From contig OX243819.1 in assembly GCA_945859605.1 (NCBI GenBank), forward strand, positions 896,361-960,360: a DNA stretch of 64,000 nt, given 5' to 3'. This stretch comes from Lumbricus rubellus (Eukaryota > Annelida > Clitellata > Crassiclitellata > Lumbricidae). Numbering within the stretch: position 1 is the stretch's first letter; every line of letters starts with the position of its first letter. This document shows positions 16,299-64,000 of this stretch, in pieces. The notes under the pieces were generated by a model. It was not told where the DNA came from, ran no database searches, and worked only from the letters and a program-made list of their open reading frames with translations. The position numbers were made by a program, and so were the translations under genes.

Positions 16299-16512
16299 CT
16301 AAAAATAATACCGCTACATATTACTTAGTATTAGTGATTCTGTATGGCTCAAGGGTGCGTACACTTGGAGTGAATAGACTGGCGGATAATGAGTTCCCGT
16401 GCATCTTTTCACAACAGCAGCTTATTAATTATCAAACCAGATGGATGTGATGAAGCGTAGGTGTTCCACAACGTGGGTGAAATCGTCACAGTCCGATGTC
16501 TGCCGATGTCAG

Positions 16513-24960: not shown

Positions 24961-25229
24961 TAAAATTAATGGATGTAGCCTATTCTTAATCTCACATAAC
25001 CATAACCATAAATTTTATTGTACCAAAATAACCAAAACATTTTTTGCGAAGTACATGTACAAAACAGTCACAAACGGAAACCCAGAAGGAATTAGAAGTC
25101 CCACTGGTAGGGTTACCTATTAACTTTTTCAGACACCTCACAACCTACTCAATATCACCTAATCTGAACTCATGACCTAACCTCGTTTGACGACCGCAAT
25201 AATAATTTATTATTTTTATTCTTTCGTAG

Positions 25230-25550
25230 ACATGAACGACGTTGCATACGTCGACATTCCTGGTCTCCCGCCGCTCGATGGCAGCACGGACGACCAAAGC
25301 CCACTGATGACTGGAGGAGACGGGAGTCCAGCAAACAACGTGTGCGCCATCTGCAGTGACAGAGCCACAGGGAAACACTACGGTGCTGCCTCCTGCGACG
25401 GATGTAAGGGATTCTTTCGACGCAGTGTACGCAAGAACCATACGTACACATGTCGATTCAACAGAAGCTGTATCGTTGATAAGGACAAACGCAATCAGTG
25501 CAGATACTGTCGACTGAAGAAATGCTTCCGCGCTGGAATGCGCAAAGAAG
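25230..25550 (+). CDS. hnf4: hnf4 exon: N-terminus and DNA-binding domain
   Basis: Preceded by TTCTTTCGTAG and ended by GAAG|GTAAGG (phase 1). Encodes both zinc fingers in one exon ([18 protein letters not shown] to [10 protein letters not shown]). ATG is at 25232. Confidence 0.95.
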
Positions 25551-32812: not shown

Positions 32813-33057
32813 TCATTTGATTATAACAGTCTTCAAAGGTAGAGGGCCATTAGCCGGGGACGAATGAACTTTAACTCCGGACTGTGAGCGAGGATTTTTT
32901 ATGTCTGACTTTGGTCTAATGTTGATCCTTTTTGTCATCAAACCAATCTTTCTGCTCGTCAACTTAACTACGAGGTTGTAGACGAGAAGATCCAGAAATT
33001 CGAAGAAAGAAAGAATACTTCCTCCTAGGAACAACCCGAAACATCCGCCGAAATCAC
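32813..33057 (-). CDS. Channel gene exon 27: TM2 and cytoplasmic tail
   Basis: Encodes SDFGGCFGLFLGGSILSFFE then FLDLLVYNLVVKL, the pore-forming TM2 with a G-G-S in the G-x-S filter position, followed by a basic tail ending TVIIK-stop. Acceptor GAATTTCTTCAG, phase 1 to stop (245 nt). Confidence 0.93.
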
Positions 33058-36000
33058 CTGAAGAAATTCAGCAGAAACACCCATAGATGTTTGTCGGTTC
33101 AAATATACATACACCTGAATCGCTCTATTCTGTCTGTCTCTTTGGCTCTTGTTCGGCATTGCTCTTAACCCAAATAGAGAGAAAACTGGTTTAGCTCTTG
33201 AAATATAGACTCTATATAATGCGGTAATGATGTCTACACTGACCAAGCAAAAATGTTGCTGATGAAAATTTAATAACTTCAATGCTTTTACTTTAGAGTA
33301 AAGGTTAATAAATTGTGTTGGATGCACACATGTTGTGAACATACTTAGGAACTGGACTAAATCGTATCCAGTCGTCTGTTCATAGGTTCGATATTTCAGT
33401 TCTCCGTAGAAAATGTCGACTTGCAGGAAATTGTTCCTAAAGAAACGCAGCAAAAAAGCAATGACAGATTTCACTTGCAATAAGACTACTTTCATATTTT
33501 CCTAGAGCACATTTCATCAGCTGAGAACAGAAGGAAAGAGAAAACTGAAAGAATTCTGCTCTGAACACCTTTAACAGCAGACTTTCTCGCCATCTGGGAG
33601 GTCTTGCTTGAATGCACCATTGTATTCCATGACATAATCCATGGCCGTAAATCATGTTACAAGATGTGGAAAGAGAAACTGCCCATTTGGAAGCGTGCTT
33701 CATTCCCTACTCAATTCAGTTACACATCAGGTTAAACAAAAGAAGTTAATTGTTCTCAGTAGACAAACCTGTGAAGTATCAGAAGAGCAAAAGGAGAGAT
33801 CACATTGTCTTATGATCAGAGAATATAATTATATTAATTATGCAAGATAGCGTAGGTTAGCAATTCCTTAATTCGTGACTAGCTATTCCAAATACCAATC
33901 ACAATCGGTATTTGACAGGAATATTATAAGAATACAGCGTAGGCCTATGCATGATTCCATCACAGCTCTTGGTTGACCATGCTTATGTCGCAGCTGACAG
34001 AAATGACGGGCGTTAGAAAATGAAAAGGTCCGTTAGACAAATTTGTGGTCAGGGAAGTCCATCTTATTCCCACCTCAAGCTCAAAAGGTGGGAAGTAATG
34101 CCACCTTTCTCTCCAGATAATTCAGGGCACTGTTAACAAATATAAATACCTGACAAAATTGTCTCCGATGAAAGTAGAATCGTTGAAATTGGTGAGCTGC
34201 TGGTTGAGAGTATTGACGTTCTTGATGACAACCTGTTGTGCTGCACGAAGCTCCAGTTGGACATTGGTCAGCGTCTGCTTGAGATTCGAATCGTAAGCAC
34301 GAACAATCATCGGAACAATAGTTGCGGAACTGTTGACTAACCCATCGAGAGTCAAGTCTCCTCCTATAACCTGTTCAATCTGATCGGAATTCAACTGAAA
34401 CCCAGCAATCTGTATAAAAACACAGACGAAATCGATAATCGCTGCAGATCCAGTTACAACACGTCAGGTCAAACAATTAGAGTTAGTTTTGCTTAGTATA
34501 CATGGCATTTGTATAACGTGTGAAGTATCAGAAAGGAAACAGGATACGATATTGTAGGTTGGAAATTACTTAATTCGTTTCGACTAAGTAGTTAAACTAA
34601 TGCTTACGAATAAAAATAAATACAGAAAATAGCAAAAGTAAATGAATCAACTCATCATAACAAATGATCGTTCATACATACCACAAATAAGAAATTATTC
34701 ACTCAAACGTTAAAGTTTACAATGCTAAAAGTTAGAGCCACATCCATTGAGACATAATTTTATGTGAAGATTTCTTCACACATCTAAAATCTTCCAAAAA
34801 GCTTTATGCAGGCCTAGATGTCGAAGATCACATAAACGATTACTAATCAGACTAATCTTTCCACACTGATAAAATCAGATGGCCTATAACTTACTATTTT
34901 GTCTTGAAGCATCGGAATTGGACTTCTCCACAAAAGCATTTCTCTGGCGAAACCACTGACAGTTGTTTCATTGTATGCCATATATGTATACACTTTATAC
35001 AAGTTGGAGATTAGCTGTGAGTAGACGGAAATTGTCCTCGTCTCGATGGTATTTATGACAGACGTCACATCCGTTAGAACTGAAGACTCGATCACAGACA
35101 ATGCATTGTCGACATGAAGCAACAATCTGCTGTTTGACTCTTGCAAAAATTGACCGGAAAGTTGAAGTTTCGTCAGACTCCCGTTTTGGTATGCAACCGT
35201 CAGATCGGTTAGCCAGCTTGCATCCACCGACAGCGTGTTCGCGGAACGCGTTGCACTTGCCATGTCGACCGTTGACACAGTCCGATCAACAGAATCAAGG
35301 AAGGACTGAAACGTTTTCAAAAGGTCTGTGTAATCTGTCATGCAGTTGAGGACGTCAGACAATTTCAGCTGCATATTCGACAACAAATACTTAATTAGCA
35401 AGAATCGATCTTCTTCGCTAAATTCATCGCATGCCTGCGATGCTTTTGTAGAGCTTGGAAATAATGTGGTAAATATGGACAATGTGCTTGATGGAGAAGT
35501 TGTTGACGTTGAAGCAGTACTAGAATTACTGGCAGTTGAAGTGCTAGAGCCACTTGGCTCGCCGTGGACAAAAGACGTGTCAGTAGAACCGGCAGTGGTA
35601 GTTGACGAAGTTGTGGGACATTGTTTTCTAGACGAAAGAATAAGTAAGCCATTTATCATATCGTTTATGTCGCCCATAAGCATCGGGCATTTCTTAACAG
35701 TGAAGTTCGCTGGACAGAACTTGCGTAGGGAGCCACTTACTGATGACATCGATTTCTTCACAGACTCAAGTACATTCCTTAGATACTCGTATTCTTCAGT
35801 TGTCATGGAAAGATTTGCAGAGTTCGTTAAATTTGAGAGCTCGTCATTCAAGAATTTCGTCTGATCGGAAATACTCTGAACCAAGAATGTAACGTTATTG
35901 CCGTAGCATTCTTGGAACTGATCTAAAAGTCGCTGACTGGAGTCGATATCGTTTCCAGCGACCTCCATTAATTTTCCGACAGCCTTTAAGATGAGACTCG

Positions 36001-39000
36001 TCTTAGAAGTTGCAGGATTTAGAAAGTTCTTGAAGACTAGAGTCTTTACTTGTCCATGACTGAGAATCACTGACTCCAGGCCAGAGATGGTTTGCGTCAG
36101 TACTGTGTCGTCTACTCTATTAGCGATTTCCAGGCTGTGCCAGTAGCTCTCCCGTATGCTGTCTGTGTTCCACAAGGTATTTGCCAAACCAACTCCAGAG
36201 AGTTGAGATACTGACAATGCAGTTGCGTATGAATAGACGAAGCATTCCTCCGGACAGTTGCAAATACCCTGATCTGTGAAAAACCACCTGATTTTTAAAT
36301 CATTTTGTTAATTTATTGGACTAACATCAAACACATTAGCAAAACCTGAAAAATGATGTTAGTCGTCTAAAAAGACGCGCAGGTCCGGTGCACCATATGA
36401 ATTTCACAAAAAGACTTCTCTTATAAATAGAATTTCATGGTGAATCGTTTCATCCATACGGATTGTCGTTGGTCAGCATTTCTCGTGGGTTCTGGGATGA
36501 GGTCTACAAATATGTCGTTCTCGAACGTTTGTGGCCGGTTGACTATTTGGTTGCCACACCAAGTAGGCGCAAAAGTAAGCGTGCTGTGCATGTTAATTTG
36601 ATGAAGAGGTTTGGATCTCGTGATCTGTGTGCACACGGGAGATGGGTTGGTAGAGCCTGTGTCTTCGACCGATGTGTCTGAAGGTGTGTGTTCGGGCATG
36701 CATGTTCGCCCGGCACAGTCGCCTGATTTGGCTGAAGTTGTCTTTAACAAGTCTTTTGAATGTTGTGCAGATGGATGAATTGCCGTGCACGCTATGTGCG
36801 TTTAACTCTACCAGTTCATTTTTAAATTTTAAGCCCGTTTTCAGCGGATATTCTAGGGACAAACGGGTAAAAGATTAAAGATGCGTTTTGCGATGTACCA
36901 GACAAGATCTCACTAGTTGCACATCATGTCGAATTGACACTTCGTGCCCGTCCTGGACCTCAGACGTCGTATCGGCTGCATCCTGAGCGTAAGGCACAGG
37001 TAGACGCATAAATTAACAACCCAATTCAGGTAGGCATTGTTGAAAAGTCCGACAGTGTATGGGCCGCACCTGTTGTACTTGTGCCTAATGCCGATGGCTC
37101 TACGAGGATGTGCACCGACTTTCGAAAATCAAACGCGCTTACAACAGCCGATCCCTATCCTATGCCGAGTGTGGAATCTCTACAGGGTGCGGCCAAAAAA
37201 TAATCCATTTCGAAAATTGCGATTTCTCGAAAACCGCTAAATATTTTGTTACAAATATTTTCATTCTTATTCGTAACATATTTTTGCATATTATGTGAAA
37301 ATTTTATGTCAATATCTTTATATTTGTGATCATGACAGCAGGCAGAAGAAGGAACTGCCTTTTTTCAATTGAACAAGACATTCACGAATTAGGAAATCAT
37401 ATTTTTACATAAAGGAGCCTGCGGTGTGCCATAATTACGTCATTTCCGCTTTGCAGACGATGTTTTGTTTACATTTTGAGTAAAATTGCAATTGTAAGCA
37501 AACAGTTTTATCGAGCGAAGAAAAAAAACGATATCCATCCAAGCCGTGTTTTGGCCGAAAGAGCCAATTTCTCTCCCCACATCATGATTTCTGTAGGTGT
37601 CACTGTCCGGACTTCATCGACAAGGATTCATGGCCCCCAAATTTTTTAGATATGAACCCACTCGACTCTGCTGTCTGGGGTGCAATGCTTGAGACTTGCA
37701 ACAAACTTACCACAAACCCAAAGAACATTTCTGAACTGGACAATACGCAGCAAATCATCTGGAATGACTTGCCACTTGAGACCATTCAGAAGTCTGTTCT
37801 GGGCTTCCCAAGACGTCTGCAAACTTGCGTAACAGCAAACGGTGTTCACTCCGAACATTCATTGCACAAAACTGAACAGTTTGGCCTAATCTTGTCAATA
37901 AAAATAAGTAACCTTGAACTTTGTTACATTTTTGTTTGCGCCGTTACTTTGGTACTTATTTCTGTGACTAAATGTTTGTTGAAACGAAAATAGCATTGTT
38001 TCATTTCAGGGTTGCACCATTGTGGTGTTATTGATTCAAATTTAATTAGATTTAGCCAAGTTGTAGATAAATATGTGTCAAATAGACTGGCAAAGTTTTG
38101 TAACAAGATATTCAGCGGTTTTCGAGAAATCGCAATTTTCGCAATGGATTATTTTTTTGGGCCGCACCCTGTATACGACAAAGTTGGAGAAGCTAAATTT
38201 CTGACAAAGCTTGATGCAACATGGGAGTTCTGGCAGATTCCGATGGACCGTGAATCTATCCCTTAAACTGGATTTGTAACTCCCCGTGGTCATTATTAGT
38301 TGCGCTAAAATAATGGCGTTTGGCTTAAAGAACGCATCCGCCGTTTTTTCCAGTCTGATTTTTAAATTACTGCATGGCTGAGATCAGTTTTGTGATGGTT
38401 TTTTGAATGATTTGATCATTTTTACTTCGTCTTTGTCTGATCATAATGGATCGCTTAAAATGTGTTCTTACTCGCATTGCTGATGCTAACTTATCTTTGA
38501 ATTATAAAGAAATGTGTTTTCGCTAATGCCGAACTAGATTTTCATGGCCACCATAATGACCTAAATTCTTTGAGAAGGAAGCGCTTGGGTAAACGTGTAT
38601 TTTAGTATGGTAAATTATTTTCACGCTTATAATTGCACAAAATTAGTCTAAAAATATTTCTGGCAACGTGCTATTGTCTAACTGATGTATTATTATACTT
38701 ATAATTTGCTAAAAAGACGTAAATCGATTGAAAAATTGTAATATTTGGTCATAACAAACCTCCAATCGAAGTTGTTATTCAATTATGACCCTTTCCGGAA
38801 GTTGCGTGCGGCAAGTGTGCAATAAGACAGCACGCAAAAATAAATAAGTAAGTAAGTAAAAGTCCAGCTTTTTCAATTGCGTCAGTTGTTTTATGAATCC
38901 AACTTCTCTTTCAATAATAATTATTTTTCATCAATCCAGCTCCAATTTAAGCTAGAATATTTTTATTAACCCAGCTTCCATTTCTCGCCCGTGATTTTCG

Positions 39001-42000
39001 TCAATCCAGCTTCTATTTCAGGTACTAAAAACCCTTCATCCAGCTTCCATTACTTAAGCGTTTTTTCATTAATCCGGCTTCTATTTCAGATCTAGAAATA
39101 CCGTCATCCAGCTTCCATTTATCATTTTGAACTTAGGACCGAAGTTTTGACGTACACGTCGATGGTTTGGGCGCGTACCCCAACTTCCGGTCATATGTTG
39201 TGGTTCAATGGCGATTCGAGCGGCGATTGCGCATGGGAAATGTGACATTTTAAAAGCTCATTTTATGTCAATATTCTTGTTCTTAACAAATTTTAAGCAT
39301 GCGGTTCGATGAGTTGGTCAAATTGAAGCTGTTTGGAATAATTTATAACACTTTTTGAGTCATTATGAGCGTGAAAATAATTTACCATACTAAAATACAC
39401 GTTTACCGAACACTAGACAAAAACGGGTTAAACTGAACGCGTTGAAATCGAAACTTAGATGCTCATGCGGGTAGCTTGAACACAATTTTATCTTACCCTG
39501 CACGAGTTCAGAATCAGATTATTCCTCAAACAATTATTTTACTCCAGGGTTCAGGTATGGCATAGGAGTACGATAAAAGGGTACTTTTTAAAGATATCTA
39601 ATATGTTATGCACTTAATCTAGTGAGTGGTTTCGTTCAAGTGGCGTTTGTTAAATATAGATACTAGCTCTCAATCTAGTATGCATCACGTGTTTTATTCA
39701 GTAAACGCATAATTTGTAAGCATAAGAATAGATGATTTTGGCTGAAAAAGAGTAGTCATTTACACCGATCACGAGTAATATGAAACAACCAGCTACAGGC
39801 TCAGTGGTCCAACTACAACTATCGTTTCCGAGGTTCAACCTTGAGAAATGCGAGTTCTGTAACACGAGACCTCGCAATTCTCAAGGCCTCAGTCCCAAGC
39901 GAAGAACTAGATACGCCCCTGAGCCTGATGAGCTTAAGCATATTTTTGGGGCGTCAACCTCGTCTAGGAAAACCTAAGCCTAAAAAACCCAACGATAGTT
40001 ACTTCCCCTTTCAGGCCGACTCGGGGTAATACGAAATTGATTTAAGAATAGTGGGAAAGAAATGGACCGTAACTTAAGCCCTTCGTTCCGGTACCAAATC
40101 GAGAAAGCAATGTGGCTTATACAATATACAAGGCTGTGCAGAAAATCCGATAACGAACCTGAAGCTGACAATATTTTGATAGAGACATCTTACCATTCCA
40201 CGATTCAATGCAAGATAGGTAAGAATCCAGGGAACAAATTTCACTGCGACCTAAAACATTCAAAGATATCTATATTAAAATAAAATATGTTATATCACAA
40301 AAAATAACACAAATATTTTTTCAGCTCATTTCTAGTGGGAACTGATACCAGGTTTCAGTCAACAAGATTAATTGTAGTATACTGATCTTGTAAGATAGGA
40401 CTACACACAATCAGGCCTACGGTACTATTTATGCGTGAATGCAAACAATGACCTTCTAAAGAACCTTCTCGTCTGTTAAGAGACAGCATTAACCTCTTGC
40501 AAATATTCACTGACTACATAGTTTGGTTATGGAATTCGATAAACTATTTTCGCAGAGAAATTGATTAAGTCAACTGGTTGGAGAAAGATTTTAACGGGTT
40601 GCTTCAGCCGACCTGGCATATAGACGTCTTTGCAGCCACATTTGGCCAACACAGATCTCGTTTTGCATTCCCGTTGACACTTGGCCGCTGTGTATCGGTC
40701 GGTTGAGTTGAAAAACTCGTAGTCCGTCGAAGAACATTGTCCCCAAGGAGGACTCAGATTCTCAGCCTTAACGACAACAAAAACTACAATAGCACAATAG
40801 ACTTTTCGTTTTGACCAGGCCTGGGTTGAGAGCGCCTCTGATTAGTGATCTTGAAGGGGCGCAATATAATATTTATGTGATTAATTGAATAGGTTCAGGG
40901 AAATCAAATACGAAAACATTGCATTTACCATGCATGTCGGTTAGTTGTTTCTATTCGAAGTGGAACAATTTGGAATGCGTAGCGTACAAGTCTCAAATAT
41001 TGATGCTAAAGATATTAAATTCCCACACCATTTATTCAGCAACATCTAACCAATGTTATAAGCTGAACAATTAATGCTATTGTTCGAATAGCCAAACAAA
41101 AGGAGTTAACATGGAAAGAAAGTCTAGAGATGACGGAGGAGATGCGGTTCTGAGAGATGAAACTCTTGTTAAACGATTATTCAAAGCCAAAATGGCGTTG
41201 TGACCTAAGGTCGTTGTTTGTCACAGGACAAGTATGGAAATATTGAAGAGCGAAACAAGTTAAGAACAGGTCTTGGTAATAAACAGTACAGTAGGCTACG
41301 AAAGATAATGTCGTTATTATTGATTTTGTTGTGGATATAACAAAAACATGTTTCTTAAAGAAAGGCGTAGACATATCGAAAATCGAACCTTGAGGCACGC
41401 CACAATAAACAATGGTTTGATACTAGAAGTGATTGATATGCAGGTCATTATGGGGGTAAATTTATTTCTATAATAGATATAATCTGTCAGTCATACAAGA
41501 CCATGCAGACGGTAGTGAACGAGCTCCTCAATATGAATTTAACAATCAACTGTGTCGTAAGATTTACATAGATAAAACAACCAATGGAAAATTTTTACAT
41601 AAAAATGTGTAATTCGAATAGTGCTAGTCGTTATTTTCTTGGATTTGATGCATGAAACCCAGTCTAATCAGGAAGTTTTGGTGGCACGCTAACTGTTGTT
41701 CACCAGACATTGGACACAGGTACAATAATGAGGTATGCTATGTGGCAGTATGTTATATGAAAAAACCAAGAAGTATAAGTACCGTCTGGTAGTCAAGCGG
41801 TGCCAACGTCTGGTATCCAGGTGCAGCGGTGAAACCGGAATCTGCAACTTGAGGAACGTCGTCATAGATATGCATGTGAATCTGAAATCAACGATGAGTC
41901 AACACACTGCAATTGCTGCATACACTATACAGTACTATACACTCAATCACACTCTATCAATTGAAATCAACTGAAACCAACTGAAACGAAATTAAGTCAA

Positions 42001-57000: not shown

Positions 57001-60000
57001 ACGACTTACACACATCTTGTCGGTTTTTTGTTTGGCGAGTCTACACATTTATTTTTAAAAAAAATATATTATAGCTAGGGTCCAACTCACGAAGTGCAAT
57101 GAATTGTAACATTGATAAGCCACCGTACCTCTATATACTGGCCACGGCCCGAGTAGTCAAGATGCACGAAGTCGTATTTCAGAGAGATGACACTATCGTT
57201 GGGAGCACGTATCTCGCTTGTCGATTCGTGACATTCATTATAGGCTAAAGTCATGAAGGCGATAACTCCCACCTTGTCTCGATACACCTGTTTGCAATCA
57301 CTGGGCTCCACCACGTCGCCTAAAAAACGAGCGACATCATGATCCATGCTAGAATAATAATATAGCATGGTAGGCTACTCATGCGGTTTTCGTAAATAGA
57401 ATCTGGAACACAGCGAAGACCAGAGGCGGAGCTGACTAAATGATGTTAATTGGCAGTCATTGGTGAAGCTTTATTAGCTTGACCAACAACTGGTAACGAA
57501 ACAATAGCGAATCCACTGAAGCGTTGCAGACCAAACAAAGTTGTACTTAAAAAGTAAGTAAGCTTGTAACTCATAACTTGCATTTATTAAGGCAAAACCT
57601 ATAGTATCGGTAAGTGTGTTTGTAGTAAACTTCTAATGATGGCACTATTCCTAATTCTAAACCTAACCGACAGGGTAGCATCTGATGAACTAACGTATTC
57701 GTTCAATATCTCAGGAGGCAGGGATGCGGGATGTGGATTAGCACCAGATTGGTTTAGCCTGCTGCTGTAGGTCTTCCTCGATTCTCCCACATTTCTACAT
57801 TCATGACTGTCACAACGACCCTTCAATTGCGTCGATGGACCAGGTTCTTTACACTTCTCAATAAGTCAACACGTCTTCCAGAATAAACTCATATCTTATT
57901 AACAGAAATAGCCTTTCTTAGGCATATAAATGAACATCTTTTAATAAGTTTAATCTTCGTCGCTTCTCCAACTCCGAGTCCTTCATCCGCTCCAGACACA
58001 CAAAGTACAGTTCGACCAGACTGGTCGGCGGTGGTCATCCGACTGAATGGTTGCTGACGCCCCTCTAGCTACCTTCCGAAAACACCAGAGGGCGCCAGGA
58101 ACGAAAGGTTCGTCAACACGAGAATGGTCCAAGGAAGGGCGGAAGGATCGGTCCACGTGCACGTCGGTGATACGTGACAATGACTGAACAACCTCACTGG
58201 CTTCCGCTCTCGGCTCGTATACAATTTAAAGTCCTGATTTTAGTCCTTACGTCTCAATTGGGTCTTGCCCCGAAGTATCTGTGTGATCATATACTTCGCC
58301 CCCCTTTCTGCCACTTCGTTGCGTCCTCTTAGGTCCTCTGATCGGCATGACCTCTTTGTCCCCCGAGTCAGGACCGCCATGGCTCAATCCAGATCATTTG
58401 CCTGCATTGGTCCCTCCCTATGGAATGGACTTCTCCCATCGGTTCGCTCTGCCATCCACTCTGGTACTGTATCCTCGTCTTTCTGTCGTCTGAAAACTTG
58501 CCTTTTTTGTTCGGGGTTAAACGCACTGGGAGCGCTTCTGAAAGGCTCTTGCTGCGAGAGGCGCTTTATAATGGTCAGATACAATAAAATACAACACAAT
58601 ACTGAGCTGTGCAATGAATTCTGTCAAAGTTTCAGTGACAAGAAATGAACATATTCCTACCATTCTGCGTTTTGTTTACGCTACCGACCTTGCAGCAGAG
58701 TCACCGTGCCAATTCCAGGAAGGGACAGCAGTAACAGGTTTCTACTGAGAATGTAAATATGTTTAAAAAAACAACCACCGGAAAATAACATAAAGAGCGG
58801 ACGGTGAGATTGAATTGAGACGAGTGGAGCAAGTAATAGAGTTTCATTACGTAGACAGGTAGACTAATCTCCTCTGGCTCATTTATGAAAGAACTAGCTG
58901 GATACCCGGCGTTGCCCGAGAAATTTAGGATTTGCCTAGTTCCCTATCAATCCCCTACTTCACCACCCTCCCTTCACCCCATCCAACTCCTATTTCCCAT
59001 CCCACTCACCCACCGAACCCCTAACCCACCGGCCCACCTTGCCTCCACCTCTCGGCTTTTGGACCACACGAACCAGCCCCAACCGCCCGCTCCCCACCAC
59101 ACCAGACCCAACCCTACCACACTCCGACGTGACGCTAAGTGGTACCTACTTGTTAGTTCCTGGAAAGTGAAAGAGGTTTCCAAGTTGGATGTAGTTGAAA
59201 CGAGAGAGTAACCGCAAGCGTCGCTTCTCACAAACGTGCAATTCACAGACCGCGTTGCTAAGCGTTAAAAACCAGAGAGAGATAGAGCTAAACACATTGC
59301 AGCATAGAAGACCAGCTGTAAATTTTGCACAAAATAAATAATTTCAGGGTAACAATTATCATCTTGATCATTATATTTAAGAGTTTTGGAGAATGTAACA
59401 CGGACTTATTGCATATTGTACTTTCTCTTTTAGAGAAGTCATTTATATCGTGAGATAATCAGTTATTCTGTTGACTTTAACCAGCAAACCAGAAGTCAGC
59501 TCAAATCCTGAGCATCACATTCCAAAAACAATTTTTAATTGCATTTAATTGCAATCATATCTTCAGTAAACTCTAAATGTCACGATTTTCCTGGTTTGTC
59601 GGCCTACAAATTCATTGCACCTGAAGTTTACGTGTTCTAACTTGAATTTAATCAATCAATTCATTTCAACGGGGCTGTTCGTAGGCAAAAAAGCAGTAAC
59701 ATAATTGAACAACAAAAGAGACGCCAATAGTCCCGTTTGGTAGGCCACCTTAGTTATCATTAGCATCAAAGTAAATAACAGGCGGGAGAGAACCTAGCAT
59801 AAATTCTCAATGAGCTACATATATAAAGAGAATTCTATCGCGAAATATGGAAAGAATCTTAGTTAGATTCACACTGATGAACCACAACACGCGTAAAATT
59901 ATGCTGCTTAGCAAAGCCTAGTTGTACTAGGCCAACACATTTGGAAGTAAACGTCATTCACTATCATCTGAAATGAAACGTAGCATGGGTAAATAATTAT

Positions 60001-63000
60001 TAATGCTAAAAAGTCGAGGCTCTAGAAAAAGGTCAGTAATTAATGATAGCTAGGACGACCAACCATGGCAAACAATCAAAAAAGAATGAGACAATAACCT
60101 TAGTATAATTTTGCGTAACGGCGTTTGAATTACAGCACAGGTTAGGAGTAGCCTACCGTAAACGAAGATTAAGAATTTTATTGTTCGATGCGGCCGCCAT
60201 GATTGTGTCATTTATTTGAAAGCAAATTGGAATTAGTTCCAAAACCTCTACAGGCTCTACTATACCCTGAGCATAAAAGTTAGACATGCAAGAGAAATAA
60301 TCTGTAAATGCAGGTGGTAATAAATTTATGGCAAAGCAGAACATAAATTCACCAAATTAATAGGCCTATCTGCGATTTCCTGATCCACACAATTAAATTT
60401 TTTTGCAAAGTTTGAAAAATGTTTTGCAAGAATTCATTTATTAATTTATTATATAACGAATAAATTCCCTGATTGAAAAGACATTGAAGCATCTGCGTTC
60501 GATTACAGCTACAGCGAGTTCTCGTGAGTTTCAAACCCATAAAAAATTACAATTTATCATCTTTACCGTTCTTGTTTGTCGTTGGTTTGGAGGCGACCAA
60601 GCACGGCTCCATTGGCGAAACCTGGATACTATCGATGGCCATGTGCGACACGAGAGGATTTCCTATAGTGGTCTGGAAAGATAGACGGTATGTTCCAAAC
60701 GGAAGACAGACGATCGCCCGCTGCCAAGAACTGTCTACACTAATGCTGTTATCGAACAGCAACTGACCGGGAATTCCTAACTTGTGAACCTGGTACAGCT
60801 GAAGCAGGGTCCCTCCATCGGATTGCTTACGGAACATGTAGTACGAGAACTGCAGTTGGGTTGACTGAGAGATGGTGATGAGTGGAGATATCAGCTGCAC
60901 CCTGTCGCCCATCTGGCCAAGGCGAGAGTTGAAAACCATGTAGTATCCTACCGTTGACACAGAAACCAAACATCAATTATTATGTTAATCCAAGTTGCGG
61001 AGTAATGGCGTTTATTTAGAAACTGAATAATTGTGCAATTATATTGCGGATGTCATGAATATTGAATAGTCGAAAACACAAATATTCCATGCGATTGTCT
61101 AGACAAACATCCCAGAAGCGGACTCGGACACATTAAAAGTTCTAATAGACGAGACATTTACAATCACACAGCTTAAAACCCAAATAAACCTGCACATTCT
61201 CTCCGAGCGAAAATCGGCGGTGACCGGATGTTCGGCTAGCGAGATCCCGAAATCTGCAATCAATCTTGTCAGAAAGGCGCTTCTAAAACCTCATCGTCTT
61301 GCGTAATACTTCCCCATTATCAGGGGTGGCATTTTAATGGCGCGCACAATGGGATTTTAGCAATGTTCCTACTTTCATACCTGCACAATGCACACATCAA
61401 CAGCACGGTAGTAATTTAATTGCGCCTTAACTACAAACGGGAACAATAATATTGTTCGTAATTAGAATTCCAGTCAAAGCAATCCAGGTTCACACAGTTC
61501 AACCTGCCTGAAAGGAATGGCTCATTTAAATTTAGAGCATAGCTTAATCCATAACTAAAATTCACTCCCAATCAAATAAAGAACCAACATATTCTCCGGT
61601 TATCCTGTTCTGAATGTTGAAACTGGCCTTAAGCATCGCAATTCACTTCATCGCATGTAATATGAACAGAGTAACGGACGAACCGTTCAAGGATCCACTG
61701 GCATCTGTTAGTGGTCCCTTGAAGCTGGTGTCATCCGAGTCGCTGGCTTTTCTACGACCCCACGATAGAGAAATTAGTGCCCGAGTTTCATAGCCGCACA
61801 AGTAAGAGTCCTCAAAGTCACAGCTAACACTTGTCTTCATCGCTGAAAGCATGTCAAATATGACATTTTATTACCACATATTATATGCATTATGTAGGCT
61901 ATGTGCAAGTACAAAAGCAGTTACATTTCTAGCGTCAAATGAATATTATTGCTGGCATTTATCTATATCTATAATTTATGATCTAAGTAGGTCTATGTAT
62001 GTATGTATGTATGTATGTATGTATGTATGTATGTATGTATGTATGTATGTATGTATGTATGTATGTATGTATGTATGTATGTATGTATGTATGTATGTAT
62101 GTATGTATGTATGTATGTATGTATGTGACGGACTTTGTCCAGAATGCACGCTCACAGTTTCGCAGCTATTGATCTGAAACTTTGCACTTAGATAGAGGGC
62201 CATCAGGATTAAAAAAGTACAGGGTTGGCGAATCTCCCACACCATGGGGGCCAGGGTTGTGGGTCAAACCCTCCAATGTTTGTCACTAAAACGCAGCTAT
62301 TGATTTCAAATTTTGTACACAGACAGAGGGCCATCAGAACCACACGGTGGAGAGGTTGACTAATCTCTACCACCATGGGGTCCAGAATGGGGGGAAGGGC
62401 GAAAACCCTAAGACGGCAGTTTATTAAACACCTCCTTAAACGCTTGCATGGCGAGAACAGCTGATGTAGATTTACGCGTACCGGTGGAGGTCGGAGTTAG
62501 TGGTGGCGTGTCGTGGGGTGGATGGGGCCCAGGGGGAGTGTGAAGGTGGAGAGGGTGGTGGGGGGAAATTTTTTCCGAAAACTCAAATTTCACGGGTGGC
62601 GTACCGGCGGAGGTCGGAATGTGGTGTGGGGAGGTGGGGTGGAGTGGGGGGGGGGGGGGTGGAGTAGGGGTGAATGAGTGAGGTGGGTGGCGAGCTTAGA
62701 GAGTGGTTAGGTTGTGGGGGTGGAGGGGTGGAGTGAGGGGTAGAGATGGATGGGTTGGGTGTAGTGGGGGGTGTGGAGAGTGGGGTGGAGGGTGGGGCAG
62801 AGGTTTTAGGGAAAGAGGGTTTGGGGTGGAGGTGGGGTGGAGGTAGGTAGCTGGCTTGGGGTGGAGGTGGGGTGGAGGGGGGTAGGGTGGTGGGATTGGG
62901 GTGGAGGGGTTTGAGGTTGGAGAGTTTGAGGGGTTGGTGAGTAGGTGGGGGTGGACGTGGAGGTGTGGTGTGGTTGTTCCTGGAGCTGGTCGAATCCTAA

Positions 63001-63363
63001 ATTTCCCGAGTAACGCCGAGTACCTCAGCTATAGTATATTAACAATAATGAACAAGCTTATACTTGACAATAGTAAAGGAAAAACTACATGGGTCTCGGT
63101 GGCTATATTTGCACCAAGGTTAATAAAATATAAAATTAGATTCGATTAGATAGTGATATATTTCTAGACGGAACCTCCTTATTGCACAAAGTTCGTGCAT
63201 ATCGGACACTATTGTCATCTGCATAAATGAAATGTTTAAGATATACCGCACAGATTTGGGTCTTCGTCGCTTCCATCGCTGCATTCAGGAATCCCATTAC
63301 ACGTCATACCCGGTGGAAGACACATTCCATCGAAACAATGAAAGTGACTCGGCACTCGGCACT
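32813..63363 (-). CDS. Chimeric DEG/ENaC channel with LDLa, MAM, CUB and kringle ectodomain (5' partial)
   Basis: Twenty-seven exons, each listed separately, chain on the minus strand with matching phases into 6,563 nt (about 2,186 codons plus stop). From N to C: LDLa; MAM (two exons); CUB-like; MAM second half; two complete MAMs; MAM first half; CUB-like; MAM second half; MAM first half; kringle; MAM second half; then DEG/ENaC extracellular sequence (TDLGLCYTFNG, SPPWGQC, CGCKDVYMP, CNCPEEC), a long inserted region, pre-TM2 strand, TM2 with GLFLGGSILSFFE and a ~50-residue basic cytoplasmic tail. DEG/ENaC channels are trimeric sodium-permeable channels with two membrane spans and a large Cys-rich extracellular loop. 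The cytosolic N-terminus and TM1 are not in the window and should lie beyond 64000. The modules would therefore form part of the extracellular loop, for ligand or matrix contact (inference). An alternative is two adjacent genes split near 44.0-44.3 kb, but no start, stop or signal peptide is seen there and phases match. Confidence 0.85.
33345..33436 (-). CDS. Channel gene exon 26: pre-TM2 strand
   Basis: Encodes NNFLQVDIFYGELKYRTYEQ, the conserved L-x-V-F-Y-x-E-L-x-Y-x-x-x-x-Q strand preceding TM2. Acceptor CGTTTCTTTAG, donor CTAA|GTATGT, phase 2 to 1 (92 nt). Confidence 0.9.
33437..34894 (-). other. Channel gene introns 24 and 25
   Basis: Apart from exon 25 (34150-34409) this is AT-rich intron sequence with no transposon or other gene that I can recognise. 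Confidence 0.5.
34150..34409 (-). CDS. Channel gene exon 25: remainder of the insertion
   Basis: Encodes IAGFQLNSDQIEQVIGGDLT and a probable helical segment (LTNVQLELRAAQQVVIKNVN). Acceptor TGTTTTTATACAG, donor TCAG|GTATTT, phase 0 to 2 (260 nt). Confidence 0.85.
34895..36273 (-). CDS. Channel gene exon 24: Cys motif then large insertion
   Basis: Starts QGICNCPEECFVYSYATALS, the C-x-C-P..C motif of the family. It then diverges into about 440 residues not expected in DEG/ENaC: helical segments, a CPANFTVKKCP pair, a Ser/Thr-rich stretch (about 35440-35620, mucin-like) and further helices. Acceptor GTTTTTCACAG, donor ATA|GTAAGT, phase 1 to 0 (1,379 nt). The open frame of this length argues for genuine coding. 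Confidence 0.9.
36440..38580 (+). mobile_element. Ty3/Gypsy retrotransposon remnant, integrase before RT
   Basis: About 36530-36640 reads as an integrase C-terminal end (WPVDYLVATPSRRK, VHVNLMKRF). About 36940-37182 then reads as RT fingers (YRLHPERKAQ, SVWAAPVVLVPNADGSTRMC). RT continues after the mariner insertion at 38174 with KFLTKLDATWEFWQIPM, then, with stops and frameshifts, MAFGLKNASAVF and NDLIIFTSS (YxDD box region). Integrase upstream of RT is the Gmr1-type order. The copy is broken by stops and has no LTRs seen. Confidence 0.75.
37183..38171 (+). mobile_element. Tc1/mariner element, 989 bp, internally deleted
   Basis: Inverted repeats of ~70 bp starting CAGGGTGCGGCC at both ends, flanked by TA dinucleotides (37181-37182 and 38172-38173). 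The plus-strand remnant around 37590-37860 keeps the transposase C-terminal part (FLDMNPLDSAVWG, the third catalytic Asp region), with no N-terminal domain and frame breaks. Its removal with one TA restores the Gypsy RT frame. Confidence 0.92.
38588..39407. mobile_element. Non-autonomous DNA element with ~45-bp inverted repeats
   Basis: GGTAAACGTGTATTTTAGTA at 38588 is mirrored at the right end to 39407, with about 44 of 45 arm bases complementary. The interior (38860-39130) is an array around TCATCCAGCTTCCATTT. No target duplication could be fixed, so superfamily is open. Confidence 0.8.
38860..39130 (+). repeat. Degenerate tandem array, core ATCAATCCAGCTTC
   Basis: At least seven copies of a 30-60-bp unit around ATCCAGCTTCYATTT. 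Reverse-oriented relatives (GAAGCTGGATTGAGGAAC) occur at 5395-5515 and 63560-63760. Confidence 0.75.
39840..39995 (+). mobile_element. Possible second Ty3/Gypsy RT fragment
   Basis: Reads FNLEKCEFCNT and, after a frame change, DELKHIFG, similar to the post-YxDD part of Gypsy RT. Short and decayed. Confidence 0.35.
40613..40766 (-). CDS. Channel gene exon 23: DEG/ENaC thumb
   Basis: Encodes LSPPWGQCSS, CQRECKTRSVLAKCGCKDVY and MP. The cysteines form the disulphide ladder of the thumb. Acceptor TTGTCGTTAAG, donor CCAG|GTCGGC, phase 0 to 1. Confidence 0.92.
40826..40872 (+). repeat. LINE/SINE 3' tail fragment
   Basis: GAGCGCCTCTGATTAGTGAT followed by CTTGAAGGGGCGCAATATAA, the shared tail of the local SINE and LINE families. 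Confidence 0.6.
41783..41881 (-). CDS. Channel gene exon 22: DEG/ENaC palm
   Basis: Encodes IHMHIYDDVPQVADSGFTAA then PGYQTLAPLD, the IH...P...G...APG strand of DEG/ENaC. Acceptor TTGATTTCAG, donor ACG|GTACTT, phase 0-0. Confidence 0.88.
42079..42161 (-). CDS. Channel gene exon 21: DEG/ENaC beta-ball/palm
   Basis: Encodes GANFGLRLLLNVEQYENVPV and ends NTGIK, matching the G..xGLRLxLN strand of the family. Acceptor GTTTTTAACAG, donor AAG|GTTCTA, phase 1 to 0. Confidence 0.88.
42572..42690 (-). CDS. Channel gene exon 20: DEG/ENaC finger with CYTFN motif
   Basis: Encodes CQWNGFACNKTDIRSQLTDL then GLCYTFNG, the hallmark C-x(n)-C...G-x-C-Y-T-F-N of DEG/ENaC. Acceptor GTGTATTTATTCAG, donor ACGG|GTCAGA, phase 2 to 1. 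Confidence 0.9.
42780..43330 (-). other. Channel gene intron 19
   Basis: No gene. A SINE-head-like GGGCGCAGTGGTCCAGGGGT lies near 43136, otherwise AT-rich. Confidence 0.4.
43338..43398 (-). CDS. Channel gene exon 19: DEG/ENaC finger region
   Basis: Encodes YDMGDFATMNGHLQERLIY. Acceptor TTGTTTTGCAG, donor AC|GTAAAT, phase 1 to 2 (61 nt). Corresponds to the helix before the finger cysteines. Confidence 0.7.
43920..44015 (-). CDS. Channel gene exon 18: junction into DEG/ENaC extracellular domain
   Basis: Encodes GTNEGKQEKREQYTGDILPS followed by DSFVQFVLNDTA. Acceptor TTTGACAG, donor GCTC|GTGAGT, phase 1-1 (96 nt). Assigned by position and phase; it resembles the palm-to-finger linker of the family. 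Confidence 0.65.
44305..44658 (-). CDS. Channel gene exon 17: MAM domain, second half
   Basis: Encodes EYFMKALFGEWLDSAVLMS, SGSVCLNFEYRLSHPKVIL and ends GITMTNSPCP. Acceptor TTGTCTTGCAG, donor CCAG|GTAATT, phase 1-1 (354 nt). Last adhesive module before channel sequence. Confidence 0.83.
45202..45516 (-). CDS. Channel gene exon 16: kringle domain
   Basis: Single-exon kringle with six cysteines in family order: RECVSYADG, SGRRCQAW, NYCRNP, WHWCY, EYCPIPVC. Acceptor GTTGCTTTAG, donor CAAG|GTATCG, phase 1-1 (315 nt). It sits between a MAM first half (exon 15) and a MAM second half (exon 17). Confidence 0.92.
45613..45836 (+). mobile_element. tRNA-derived SINE
   Basis: A box A-like TGGTGTAGTGGGTATG and box B GGTTCGAATTC form a tRNA-related head. 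The body has ACCTTGGGCAAGTCCTTCAC and a tail GGGAGCGCTTCTGAGTAG ... GGGGCGCTATAACAAGTG shared with LINE ends in this window. Lies in intron between exons 15 and 16 of the channel gene, opposite strand. Confidence 0.85.
46012..46131 (-). CDS. Channel gene exon 15: MAM domain, first half
   Basis: Encodes NLSCDFEKFDNCGYHD and RWVATGYWPKPT. Acceptor TTGTTTCTCCAG, donor ACAG|GTGAGA, phase 1-1 (120 nt). Confidence 0.88.
46476..47140. mobile_element. Foldback MULE-like MITE, 665 bp, 9-bp target duplication
   Basis: Ends GGGTGTAGGACATTATCCCC and (reverse-complemented) GGGGAACGGACATTATCCCC, each continued by further GGACATTATCCCCC units. Flanked by perfect 9-bp duplications ACTTATTAC (46467-46475 and 47141-47149). 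The interior repeats GACGTTAACAAACCTT at about 46669, 46741 and 46862, with a diverged copy near 46971. A 9-bp duplication and G-rich ends suggest Mutator-like origin. Confidence 0.85.
47202..47552 (-). CDS. Channel gene exon 14: MAM domain, second half
   Basis: Encodes GYSLELTRNLKSDLKETNN, IVCLAVDFVLPSS and ends NISVEFGPCHET. Acceptor TTGTTGTCCAG, donor ACCG|GTGATC, phase 1-1 (351 nt). Confidence 0.82.
48083..48251 (-). CDS. Channel gene exon 13: CUB-like module 2, second half
   Basis: Encodes VSRKENGEMTVKAENINF and NDVLYVYLQSILGF, ending ITYVIHGSDPPK, parallel to the end of exon 5. Acceptor AATCCCACAG, donor AAAG|GTAGGA, phase 0 to 1. Confidence 0.7.
48322..48502 (-). mobile_element. SINE copy, minus orientation
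   Basis: On the minus strand shows GGGGCGCTGTGGTGGCGTC, box B-like GGTTCGAATCC and the CCTTCACTCGCA region. Matches the SINE at 45613-45836 in order. Confidence 0.75.
48570..48658 (+). repeat. LINE/SINE tail with (AATAC)n end
   Basis: GGGAGCGCCTCTGAACGG, AGAGGCGCTTTATAAATG and a terminal AATACAATACAATAC repeat, the same tail type as at 58500-58600. Confidence 0.65.
48747..49003. mobile_element. hAT-type MITE, 257 bp
   Basis: Terminal repeats CAAGGGCGGATACAG and CAGGGGCGGATCCAG, with perfect 8-bp duplications CTTACAGG (48739-48746 and 49004-49011). Interior has homopolymer T and G runs, no coding. Confidence 0.92.
49520..49692 (-). CDS. Channel gene exon 12: CUB-like module 2, first half
   Basis: Encodes VLIVIYDLYGALNVTGLDRG, AIHLNAAGNFSATLQL and ends NTNYVAQ. 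Acceptor TCTGTTTTCTAG, donor CAG|GTTAGT, phase 1 to 0, the same phase pattern and module position as exon 4. Fewer cysteines than module 1. Confidence 0.65.
50383..50484 (-). CDS. Channel gene exon 11: MAM domain, first half
   Basis: Encodes CADDSVCLSRVMSPSPQFIW and FVQKTGD. Acceptor GACCGTTTTAG, donor GATG|GTAAGA, phase 1-1 (102 nt). The next confidently placed exon is 13's counterpart at 49520-49692, not a MAM second half. Confidence 0.75.
51003..51383 (-). CDS. Channel gene exon 10: MAM domain, second half
   Basis: Encodes ISWGLSTGNILTTYTYM, FTEARATRSNTKLSLDVY and ends TETNCSTQTQFND. Acceptor GTTTATTTGTAG, donor GACT|GTAAGT, phase 1-1 (381 nt). Confidence 0.85.
51667..51774 (-). CDS. Channel gene exon 9: MAM domain, first half
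   Basis: Encodes DSINCTESFSSCGYQLGED and DYYSTVDNKH. Acceptor TTATTTCAG, donor CACT|GTAAGA, phase 1-1 (108 nt). Confidence 0.8.
52004..52130. repeat. (CAGA)n/(CATA)n microsatellite
   Basis: CAGACAGACATACA-type tract in the intron between exons 8 and 9. It gives Cys/Leu/Ser/Val-rich frames on the minus strand, not genes. Confidence 0.9.
52951..53310 (-). CDS. Channel gene exon 8: MAM domain, second half
   Basis: Encodes GYTVGELSRLLSPTYTS, MPCLLLSVTFNSTNIRLSF and ends IEPNTCKVVYP. Acceptor TCGACGACAG, donor CCTG|GTAAGG, phase 1-1 (360 nt). Confidence 0.85.
53695..53942 (+). mobile_element. 3' end of a CR1/L2-like LINE
   Basis: Reads VPRARTSTRQRRAFSSVGPA then AFYKSLKTYYF, the C-terminal tail after RT in such LINEs. 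Followed by GGGAGCGCCTCTGAGTAG, AAGCGCTATATAAATTC and (TGAA)n. Confidence 0.8.
54740..54868 (-). CDS. Channel gene exon 7: MAM domain, first half
   Basis: Encodes NGFCDFSSAEASCPISHQSQ and SGYSWSPA. Acceptor TTAACAACAG, donor CTCAG|GTAACA, phase 1-1 (129 nt). Confidence 0.8.
55030..55345 (-). mobile_element. 3' end of a related LINE, minus orientation
   Basis: On the minus strand SFSVSGPTAWNSLPDHVK and LKTYLF, then GGCGCTATATAAATAG and an (ATT)n end (55036-55061). Contains a weaker GC-rich body than the copy at 53695. Confidence 0.7.
55346..55910. repeat. CT-rich low-complexity tract
   Basis: Pyrimidine-rich TTCTCCTC sequence between exons 6 and 7. It yields Ser/Leu/Phe-rich plus-strand frames without domain support. 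Confidence 0.7.
55925..56302 (-). CDS. Channel gene exon 6: MAM domain, second half
   Basis: Begins AMVFILRVNSQNNEQMGVGE and ends LLENQCN; aligns with the start of exon 3. Acceptor CTCATTGTAG, donor AACT|GTACGA, phase 1-1. No MAM first half precedes it directly; a CUB-like module does. Confidence 0.78.
56776..56962 (-). CDS. Channel gene exon 5: CUB-like module 1, second half
   Basis: Encodes IRFYDELQQNWTLW and TTGLRIIYFENQYSL, ending KVSMPPNT. Acceptor CTGGTTTTAG, donor ACAG|GTAAGA, phase 0 to 1. Confidence 0.75.
57129..57319 (-). CDS. Channel gene exon 4: CUB-like module 1, first half
   Basis: Encodes GDVVEPSDCKQVYRDKVGVI, a second Cys (AYNEC), then IRAPNDSVISLKYDFVHLDY and QYIE. This matches the Cys...Gly-Ile...Tyr...Cys...beta-strand pattern of CUB. 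Acceptor CGTTTTTTAG, donor GAG|GTACGG, phase 1 to 0. Confidence 0.75.
58204..58600 (+). mobile_element. 3' end of a LINE, plus orientation
   Basis: Reads APKYLCDHI-like sequence, LRSSDRHDLFVPRVRTAMAQ and RSFACIGPSLWNGLLPS, then GGGAGCGCTTCTGAAAGG, AGAGGCGCTTTATAATGG and a short AATACA-rich end. A CR1/L2-like C-terminus, 5' truncated. Confidence 0.8.
58888..59150 (+). repeat. C-rich repeat with GATACCCGGCGTTGCCCG head
   Basis: Head GCTGGATACCCGGCGTTGCC CGAGAAATTTAGGATT followed by ~170 bp of CCACCC-type sequence. The reverse complement of 62450-63010 shows the same head and C-rich body. Confidence 0.7.
60567..60947 (-). CDS. Channel gene exon 3: MAM domain, second half
   Basis: Starts YYMVFNSRLGQMGDRVQLIS, contains FSYYMFRKQSDGGTLLQLY and ends SPMEPCLVASKPTTNKN. 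Acceptor CAACGGTAG, donor AACG|GTAAAG, phase 1-1 (381 nt). Confidence 0.87.
61684..61842 (-). CDS. Channel gene exon 2: MAM domain, first half
   Basis: Encodes SCDFEDSYLCGYET, the classic CDFE..CGY start of MAM, and ends GPLTDASGSLNG. Acceptor ATGCTTTCAG, donor ACG|GTTCGT, phase 1-1. The donor is weak but gives the correct MAM continuation. Confidence 0.85.
61996..62127. repeat. (ATGT)n microsatellite, ~33 uninterrupted units
   Basis: A pure TATG run of about 130 bp in intron 1. It encodes artefactual MYVC or THIH repeats. Confidence 0.97.
62130..63015 (-). repeat. Composite repeat: CGCAGCTATTGAT units plus G-rich body
   Basis: Two ~135-bp units (62160 and 62296) share CGCAGCTATTGAT and AGAGGGCCATCAG. 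They are followed by GGGGTGGAGG-rich sequence (62500-62960) and the head ATCCTAAATTTCCCGAGT AACGCCGAGTACC, inverted relative to 58888. Probably one old retroelement end. G-quadruplex potential is high. Confidence 0.65.
63247..63363 (-). CDS. Channel gene exon 1 in window: LDL-receptor class A module
   Basis: Six cysteines in LDLa spacing ending CNGIPECSDGSDED, the acidic calcium-binding motif. Acceptor GGTCTCGTCAG, donor GCG|GTATAT, phase 1-1 (117 nt). The short hydrophobic stretch upstream of the acceptor (MIFLLVSS) could mimic a signal peptide, but the pyrimidine-rich acceptor and symmetric phase favour an internal exon. Confidence 0.85.
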
Positions 63364-64000
63364 CTGACGAGACCAACAGAAAGATCATGACTAAGCATTT
63401 TCTCCAATCATGTAGCAAATTATCACAAATCGTTCTCTAATTCACTATCTATAATAGTGAGTAGGACAATATTCAAAACGCACTGCATTGTCCATCCTGT
63501 CACTTCTTGTGGAGAAAAGCAAGACACTTTTCTAGTTTAAACAATTGTAGTGAAAGCGACTAAAAGATTATTGCTGAAATTGAAGCTGGATTGAGGAACA
63601 ATAATTGTTAGTTGAATATTATATATTAATGAGAAATAGTTGTTGTTGCTCAAATAGAAACCGAATTGAGGAAACGAATCTTTGCCTTAATGGAACTTAC
63701 GGAAGCTGTAGGCTACTAATGAAATAGGATTCATGCCAAAGCTAAAAGTCGGATTGATGGAAAAATAATAGCTGTGATAGGCGCGATGATAAATATAAAG
63801 ATGAGACAAAAGAATTGGGTGGGACAGTTGTTGCGAGGTAACTCATTGCAGAAAGAAATAACTGATTGTTGTACATTCCGCAACAGTCACGCGAATGCTT
63901 TGTTCTTCACCAGCATGGTGGGGTTTTGCAAATGAGGGTCAGAAGAGTTGACTGTCCGCTATTATTAGAAAGTTGACACGACAGGTTTTTGTTTTGCCCA
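63364..64000 (-). other. Upstream intron of the channel gene
   Basis: No exon recognised. 63560-63760 carries imperfect repeats around GAAGCTGGATTGAGGAAC, relatives of the array at 38860-39130. TM1 and the N-terminus of the channel must lie beyond the window. Confidence 0.45.

Follow-up and report, generated by a model that had tools for sequence, protein, structure and literature searches.

The window that we analyzed, a 64,000-nucleotide stretch of the genome of the earthworm Lumbricus rubellus, carries on its minus strand a coding chain running from 63363 to 32813, in which 29 exons join in phase to give 2,243 codons and a stop, with no internal stop. All 28 internal introns of this model are bounded by GT-AG dinucleotides, the shortest being 166 nt long. 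A first-pass annotation of the same DNA had already drawn an in-phase chain on this strand; that part stands, but its tally of 27 exons and about 2,186 codons is corrected by the present count.

The exons were modeled with a small gene-finder, run once with looser and once with stricter settings, together with hand curation from the sequence. For 20 of the 29 exons, one or both runs gave identical ends and an identical frame, an agreement that is not independent, since the codon model of the gene-finder was trained on seeds chosen from the same gene. Nine exons (E1, E8, E17, C3-C7 and C10) were set by hand; for C7, the gene-finder gave identical ends in a different frame. Four exons of the looser run that had no counterpart (58689-58741, 55146-55367, 37711-37816 and 31831-31923) were left out, as were many short exons from a low-penalty run. 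The chaining score was 334.8 on the real strand, whereas eight dinucleotide shuffles scored 13.5-55.8, the plus strand 66.8 and the reversed sequence 80.9, a comparison tilted toward the real strand by a codon model trained on this same coding sequence. The exons of the module-bearing half (E1 to E18) are as follows:

63247..63363, minus strand: E1, LDLa module, phase 1 in and 1 out (PF00057, 1.6e-7 in plain translation; ends hand-set)
61684..61842, minus strand: E2, N-half of MAM unit 1 (gene-finder; E2+E3 match PF00629 at 1.6e-21, profile positions 1-154 of 158)
60567..60947, minus strand: E3, C-half of MAM unit 1 (PF00629 alone, 1.2e-11, profile positions 44-154)
59150..59257, minus strand: E4, MAM-like N-half of unit 2 (22.4 bits to the other N-halves; 0 of 500 shuffles as good)
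57129..57319, minus strand: E5, first exon of X1, phase 1 in and 0 out (gene model; no CUB match in Pfam or PDB)
56776..56962, minus strand: E6, second exon of X1, phase 0 in and 1 out (gene model)
55931..56302, minus strand: E7, MAM-like C-half of unit 2 (gene-finder; assigned only from its place and pattern; 65 of 500 shuffles as good)
54740..54868, minus strand: E8, possible MAM-like N-half of unit 3 (hand-set; 218 of 500 shuffles as good, hence no support)
52951..53322, minus strand: E9, MAM-like C-half of unit 3 (gene-finder; 27 of 500 shuffles as good)
51667..51774, minus strand: E10, MAM-like N-half of unit 4 (gene-finder; 0 of 500 shuffles as good)
51003..51383, minus strand: E11, MAM-like C-half of unit 4 (gene-finder; 57 of 500 shuffles as good)
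50383..50484, minus strand: E12, possible divergent MAM-like N-half of unit 5 (gene-finder; 408 of 500 shuffles as good, hence no sequence support)
49520..49692, minus strand: E13, first exon of X2, phase 1 in and 0 out (gene-finder; E13+E14 without Pfam match)
48083..48251, minus strand: E14, second exon of X2, phase 0 in and 1 out (gene-finder; E13+E14 without Pfam match)
47202..47552, minus strand: E15, MAM-like C-half of unit 5 (gene-finder; 44 of 500 shuffles as good)
46012..46131, minus strand: E16, N-half of MAM unit 6 (PF00629 weak alone, 14.3 bits, profile positions 1-24; 0 of 500 shuffles as good)
45202..45516, minus strand: E17, kringle, between the halves of MAM unit 6 (PF00051, 1.6e-14; 5' end hand-set, 45507 in the gene-finder)
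44305..44658, minus strand: E18, C-half of MAM unit 6 (PF00629 alone, 3.6e-7, profile positions 54-158)

A Pfam search of the spliced product returned four families, each above its own curated cut-off: LDLa (PF00057) at 1.1e-6 and 29.2 bits against 24.1, or 2.9e-8 in a shorter piece; MAM (PF00629) at 2.2e-32 in two stretches; kringle (PF00051) at 1.2e-12 and 54.4 bits against 34.3; and DEG/ENaC (PF00858) at 1.2e-60 and 206.3 bits against 23.6. All four are also found in plain three-frame translations of the minus strand, made without the gene model and with stops read as X, and the matches are therefore independent of our choice of exons. In the sequence itself, the LDLa module has its six cysteines and an acidic calcium site (CSDGSDED), and the kringle has the six cysteines of its family, with plasminogen and HGF as its closest counterparts in the PDB. 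The LDLa, kringle and DEG/ENaC calls of the earlier annotation are borne out by these matches. Its two CUB-like modules, which correspond to X1 and X2, are not: neither shows a CUB match in Pfam up to E=10, nor does X1 in the PDB. No EGF family is among the four matched on the product, which accordingly does not show the EGAS-type pairing of EGF with ASC. A single-sequence AlphaFold model of X1 (pLDDT 41) was too poor for use.

The repeated MAM halves proposed at first pass hold up in part. Pfam recognizes MAM in two of the six units, E2+E3 and E16+E18, but leaves the other four unmatched. When each half was scored against leave-one-out profiles, with 500 shuffles apiece, four of the six N-halves and two of the six C-halves gained support, the others being assigned by place and pattern only.

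Inspection of the last unit points to a kringle nested within a MAM domain. With E17 omitted, E16 and E18 join into one MAM stretch that covers profile positions 1-158 at 42.4 bits; with E17 kept, the score is 37.9 and the match falls into two stretches. The C-half exon of unit 1 begins near profile position 44. Because E16 and E18 alone give one full MAM match, the kringle occupies the site of the intron of unit 1, and the alignments support the view that the kringle exon splits unit 6. If so, the locus would provide an example of a module inserted inside a MAM domain. The joined E16+E18, searched as one protein in the PDB, returned nothing even at E=10, and a single-sequence AlphaFold model of E16-E18 reached a pLDDT of 36, again too poor for use. 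The same layout recurs twice, as E4-[E5,E6]-E7 and E12-[E13,E14]-E15, with two-exon inserts phased 1-0-1. Pfam finds no MAM match in joined E4+E7 or E12+E15, and among E4, E7, E12 and E15 the sequence supports E4 only, so we treat insertion of X1 and X2 into MAM domains as conjecture.

Several introns of the gene hold sequence that we take to be transposon-like. A simple repeat containing GGATAATGTCC occurs in the intron between E15 and E16, with copies in opposite orientations at 46.5 kb and 47.0-47.2 kb, and simple-sequence arrays at 61995-62130, 6.6-7.0 kb and 51.9-52.1 kb give rise to spurious open reading frames.

The remaining 11 exons make up the channel half, whose 881 codons are open throughout and joined at GT-AG sites:

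43920..44015, minus strand: C1, linker into the channel, with a dibasic QEKREQ (gene-finder and chaining)
43338..43398, minus strand: C2, where ASIC1 homology begins, at about residue 151 of 7rnn_D (alignment; gene-finder exon)
42572..42690, minus strand: C3, extracellular core of the channel with GLCYTFNG (PF00858 and ASIC1 alignment; hand-set)
42079..42161, minus strand: C4, extracellular core of the channel (ASIC1 alignment; hand-set, weak donor of 0.5)
41783..41881, minus strand: C5, extracellular core of the channel (ASIC1 alignment; hand-set)
40613..40766, minus strand: C6, channel core with SPPWGQC (PF00858, 4.5e-12 in plain translation; ASIC1 alignment; hand-set)
40194..40250, minus strand: C7, channel core with the thumb cysteines (ASIC1 alignment; hand-set)
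34895..36273, minus strand: C8, CNCPEEC and then most of the knuckle insert (single open exon of 1,379 nt)
34150..34409, minus strand: C9, end of the long insert (gene model)
33345..33436, minus strand: C10, last palm strands, LQVDIFYGELKYRTYEQ (second block of the ASIC1 alignment; 3' end hand-set)
32813..33057, minus strand: C11, TM2 with SDFGGCFGLFLGGS, a short cytoplasmic tail and the stop (ASIC1 alignment)

Structural alignment targets in the PDB rank this half closest to ASIC1 (148.6 bits), followed by ASIC2 (142.3), ASIC5 (92.8), ENaC alpha (91.1) and an FMRFamide-gated channel (86.4). The similarity to ASIC1 (2.8e-42) falls into two blocks, residues 151-382 and 398-462 of the 528-residue chain 7rnn_D, and the PF00858 match begins at profile position 123 of 455. 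The first block contains a cysteine-rich extracellular core with the conserved motifs of the family; GLCYTFNG, SPPWGQC, CNCPEEC and GLFLGGS, singled out at first pass, are all present and aligned to ASIC1. In the second, TM2 aligns together with its G-x-S tract (SDFGGCFGLFLGGS), which we take to be the selectivity tract, and a hydropathy scan places the membrane-like segment of this half in C11. The product thus shares with ASIC1 the core from about residue 151, the cysteine pattern, TM2 and the G-x-S tract. It differs in the size of the knuckle, about 15 residues in ASIC1 and about 500 here, and in that TM1 was not found; to our knowledge, ASIC1 carries no adhesion modules. A long open reading frame at 37.0-38.4 kb, within the intron between C7 and C8, resembles mobile-element sequence.

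The knuckle enlargement had escaped the first-pass annotation, as had the missing TM1 and first palm strand and the kringle exon within a MAM domain. Where 15 residues separate the two aligned blocks of ASIC1 (382 to 398), this product has about 500 (residues 1611-2128), which follow CNCPEEC and precede the last palm strands. The insert contains nine N-glycosylation sequons and, within C8, a 60-residue stretch of which 41 residues are Ser, Thr or Pro. By its order in the chain, we take the site to be the knuckle, at helix 6. In ENaC, as described in PMC6197857, the knuckle touches the neighboring subunit at its finger helices 1 and 2 and builds a collar with them, and the GRIP domain lies between those two helices (PMC6197857). 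With the module array at the finger and the insert at the knuckle, both enlargements would therefore fall in the collar.

Placing the array at the finger depends on where the first transmembrane segment lies. LDLa, MAM and kringle modules are normally extracellular, and in DEG/ENaC channels TM1 and the first palm strand precede the point that corresponds to about residue 151 of ASIC1. The array ends before the ASIC1-like stretch that starts there, and its own upstream context lies beyond the window. The N-terminal part of PF00858, which covers TM1 and the first palm strand, was not matched in any of the three minus-strand frames at 40-64 kb, although a scan of this kind can overlook exons of very small size, and neither C2 nor C4 was picked up on its own. 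A strict FPxVTxC-type pattern gave no hits across all six frames of the window. Nor does C1 have an in-frame Met before its upstream stop. In light of the missing profile match and strict motif, TM1, if present, should not lie between the modules and the channel, and we infer that it either precedes LDLa, in DNA beyond the window, or is absent. In the former case, the modules would sit within the extracellular loop, at the finger before what we take to be its third helix. The earlier description of modules that simply precede the channel is right as to their order in the chain, but in a normal channel the topology and the missing TM1 would place them inside the loop.

A looser VTxCN-type pattern gave 19 matches, all on the minus strand and judged by eye to be chance. 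The match at 43660 was rejected, no donor having been seen that keeps phase into C2, and the one at 63859, upstream of E1, had an exon score of -4.4 or worse. The 637 bp that precede E1 offer 37 phase-compatible candidate exons, of which none resembles TM1 or the first palm strand. The best of these 37 (63505-63446) contains a possible start, which stands outside our model:

63446..63488, minus strand: possible start exon, MQCVLNIVLLTIID, phase 1 out (donor 2.7, hydrophobic core 2.91)

This candidate lies 82 bp before E1 and would join it through an 82-nt intron, shorter than all 28 introns of the model (at least 166 nt each). Its hydrophobic core is short, at about 10 residues, and the sequence leading up to the join with E1 is, as far as we can judge, unlike a usual signal-peptidase site. 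Among 23 intron tiles one had a comparable start, as did one of 50 plus-strand tiles and four of 300 shuffles, or about 1-4%. A chance occurrence is possible, though it would not be our first guess, and the MQCVLNIVLLTIID start consequently counts toward readings without TM1 and lowers the odds of the one that we prefer.

That preferred reading, to which we give a probability of roughly 0.45, is of a single gene for an ASIC-like DEG/ENaC subunit with an extracellular loop that has grown at two sites and bears a matrix- or ligand-binding arm. A single fusion of modules to channel, as first proposed, is partly supported: phases are continuous across the junction, the intron between E18 and C1 spans just 289 bp, and the channel lacks both an in-frame Met of its own ahead of C1 and a TM1 within the stretch searched. 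Against it stand the TM1 unseen in the window, the MQCVLNIVLLTIID start, the read-through of E18, the four of six MAM units that Pfam leaves unmatched, and the stricter gene-finder run, in which the chain came apart as two genes at 42.36/37.86 kb, within the channel part.

The read-through bears on whether one gene or two are present. Continued past its donor, E18 encodes 21 further residues (GNCIDVLIAVGHVLLCHVMLT; 44242-44304, minus strand) with a hydrophobic tail and a stop at 44242, and an ATTAAA lies at 44142, 100 nt beyond that stop. This extension could be an alternative end that yields a module-only isoform. Combined with the possible start exon before LDLa, it also allows a self-contained module gene to be drawn: it would span about 63488 to about 44242, encode an LDLa/MAM/kringle protein that is either secreted or anchored in the membrane, and lie inside or beside a DEG/ENaC gene with its TM1 exon beyond 64 kb. 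The module exons, as a phase-1 block, could be skipped without loss of frame. Both gene-finder runs nevertheless join E18 to C1, across a strong donor (6.4) and a good acceptor (4.9); the channel half has neither a start nor a TM1 of its own at 44.3-42.7 kb; and the entire module gene would have to sit in one intron of the channel gene. We regard two genes as unlikely, if well short of negligible.

A single gene need not encode an ordinary channel. The product might instead be a single-pass protein that begins at MQCVLNIVLLTIID, has lost TM1 and keeps the DEG/ENaC core and TM2, which would account for a possible start exon and for a searched stretch devoid of TM1. Such a protein would retain the GGS tract, an SDFGG stretch and TM2, which are unexpected without a pore, and it would begin with a short start peptide whose hydrophobic core is a mere 10 residues, spliced through an intron of a length below that of all 28 in the model. 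We consider this improbable. Least credible of all is a decaying or misassembled locus in which rearrangement or assembly error has set a DEG/ENaC fragment beside a module gene: the transposon-like sequence in several introns and the missing TM1 would suit it, but 881 channel-side codons stay open across 11 exons with GT-AG sites, and the conserved motifs are unbroken.

Returning to the single enlarged channel subunit, the phases suggest how it might have arisen. From the acceptor of E1 to that of C1, 17 of 19 splice boundaries are in phase 1, as against 5 of 10 within the channel, although phase was one criterion for placing the nine hand-set exons and the argument is weakened to that extent. 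This bias fits insertion into a phase-1 intron, and the array, made mostly of phase-1 modules, may have been shuffled into such an intron of a channel gene; class 1-1 modules are described as the kind used in exon shuffling (PMC8001218). Isoforms with and without the array are possible.

The gene-model chain, the LDLa, MAM and kringle identities, the ASIC-like core with TM2 and the large insert are observed directly, and they are matters of anatomy. The function that we propose would build on them as follows. TM1 and the first palm strand would be encoded ahead of LDLa, in DNA beyond the window. The array, at least 1,362 residues long, would emerge after the first palm strand and before the last finger helix, at about the position that the GRIP domain has in vertebrate ENaC; the second insert, some 500 residues long, would sit at knuckle helix 6, so that both would occupy the collar at the outer rim. 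The partner of the arm would be matrix, or else a ligand, soluble or on a cell surface, in keeping with the matrix- or ligand-tethered channel that the earlier annotation proposed, which we consider a reasonable suggestion. A pull, binding or displacement at finger and knuckle might reach the pore by way of thumb and palm. The result would be a subunit of a trimeric sodium channel held by its arm. The dibasic QEKREQ (residue 1371), just before the channel, could by analogy be a cleavage site. In ENaC, removal of part of the finger insert has been proposed to rearrange finger and thumb (PMC6197857), and tethering is presented in PMC10148893 as a standing model for DEG/ENaC mechanosensing.

In its fullest form, this proposal would have both halves of the collar carrying giant inserts, a finger arm of more than 1,360 residues (LDLa, MAM, kringle and unassigned modules) and a mucin-like knuckle stalk of about 500, with the kringle, and perhaps X1 and X2, lodged in the intron that divides MAM. 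Adhesion receptor and channel would then form one chain, gated by load or ligand, from which the arm might be shed at QEKREQ or spliced out. Taken as a whole, this elaboration is speculative, and we think it unlikely to be right in every part.

Known channels offer partial parallels. Vertebrate ENaC with its GRIP domain has extra material at the finger, as this product would, an insert described as protease-sensitive and as gating the channel (PMC6197857). The GRIP domain is a small beta-stranded insert with inhibitory tracts, in contrast to the LDLa/MAM/kringle chain that would take its place here, and ENaC is less similar in sequence to this gene than ASIC1 is. A further parallel is given by the C. 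elegans proteins EGAS-1 to -4, which also join a DEG/ENaC channel to extracellular modules (EGF + ASC). PMC10424705 describes them as channels that combine DEG/ENaC with EGF modules, and reports no significant current for EGAS subunits; their modules differ from ours, no EGF having been matched in this product. On the module side, multidomain animal proteins such as MALRD1 combine LDLa with repeated MAM. We know of none among them that has a channel domain, whereas here a channel is fused in the model and a kringle stands between MAM halves.

Searches for the same combination elsewhere returned no counterpart. In open-licence literature, we found no DEG/ENaC or ASIC channel with MAM, LDL/LDLa, kringle or CUB modules among titles and the opening lines of abstracts, and a term search for LDL or kringle gave no uses in two papers on DEG/ENaC evolution (PMC10507113 and PMC9822975). 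In a large protein collection queried with the channel core, 0 of 446 and 0 of 1,004 candidates reached E<=1e-5, the second search allowing ordinary channel lengths; the lack of a fused relative there means little, because the collection appears to hold few or no animal DEG/ENaC proteins. One scan each of prokaryote genome contigs and of viral contigs likewise gave no relative.

It is not yet settled how force is sensed by DEG/ENaC channels. The tether model, as set out in PMC10148893, relies on separate matrix proteins, and mechanosensitivity is hard to show outside the native setting (PMC10148893). If our reading is correct, a subunit with a built-in tether at finger and knuckle would make that model testable in a single protein whose arm is cut or shortened. 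It would also mean that exon shuffling reaches into the loop of an ion channel, and it would represent an unusual way of tying such a channel to its surroundings.

Elsewhere in the window, an HNF4-like nuclear receptor gene lies on the plus strand at 25181-27038, perhaps extending to 30463, and is convergent with the channel gene. Its DNA-binding domain is closest to HNF4-alpha in the PDB (1.5e-40), and the start of its ligand-binding domain is recognized in Pfam; the gene is a potential synteny anchor for finding relatives of the locus. Long mobile-element-like open reading frames occupy 14196-16324 and 20566-21706 on the minus strand, and together with the one at 37.0-38.4 kb we take these to be THAP-like and retroelement-like.
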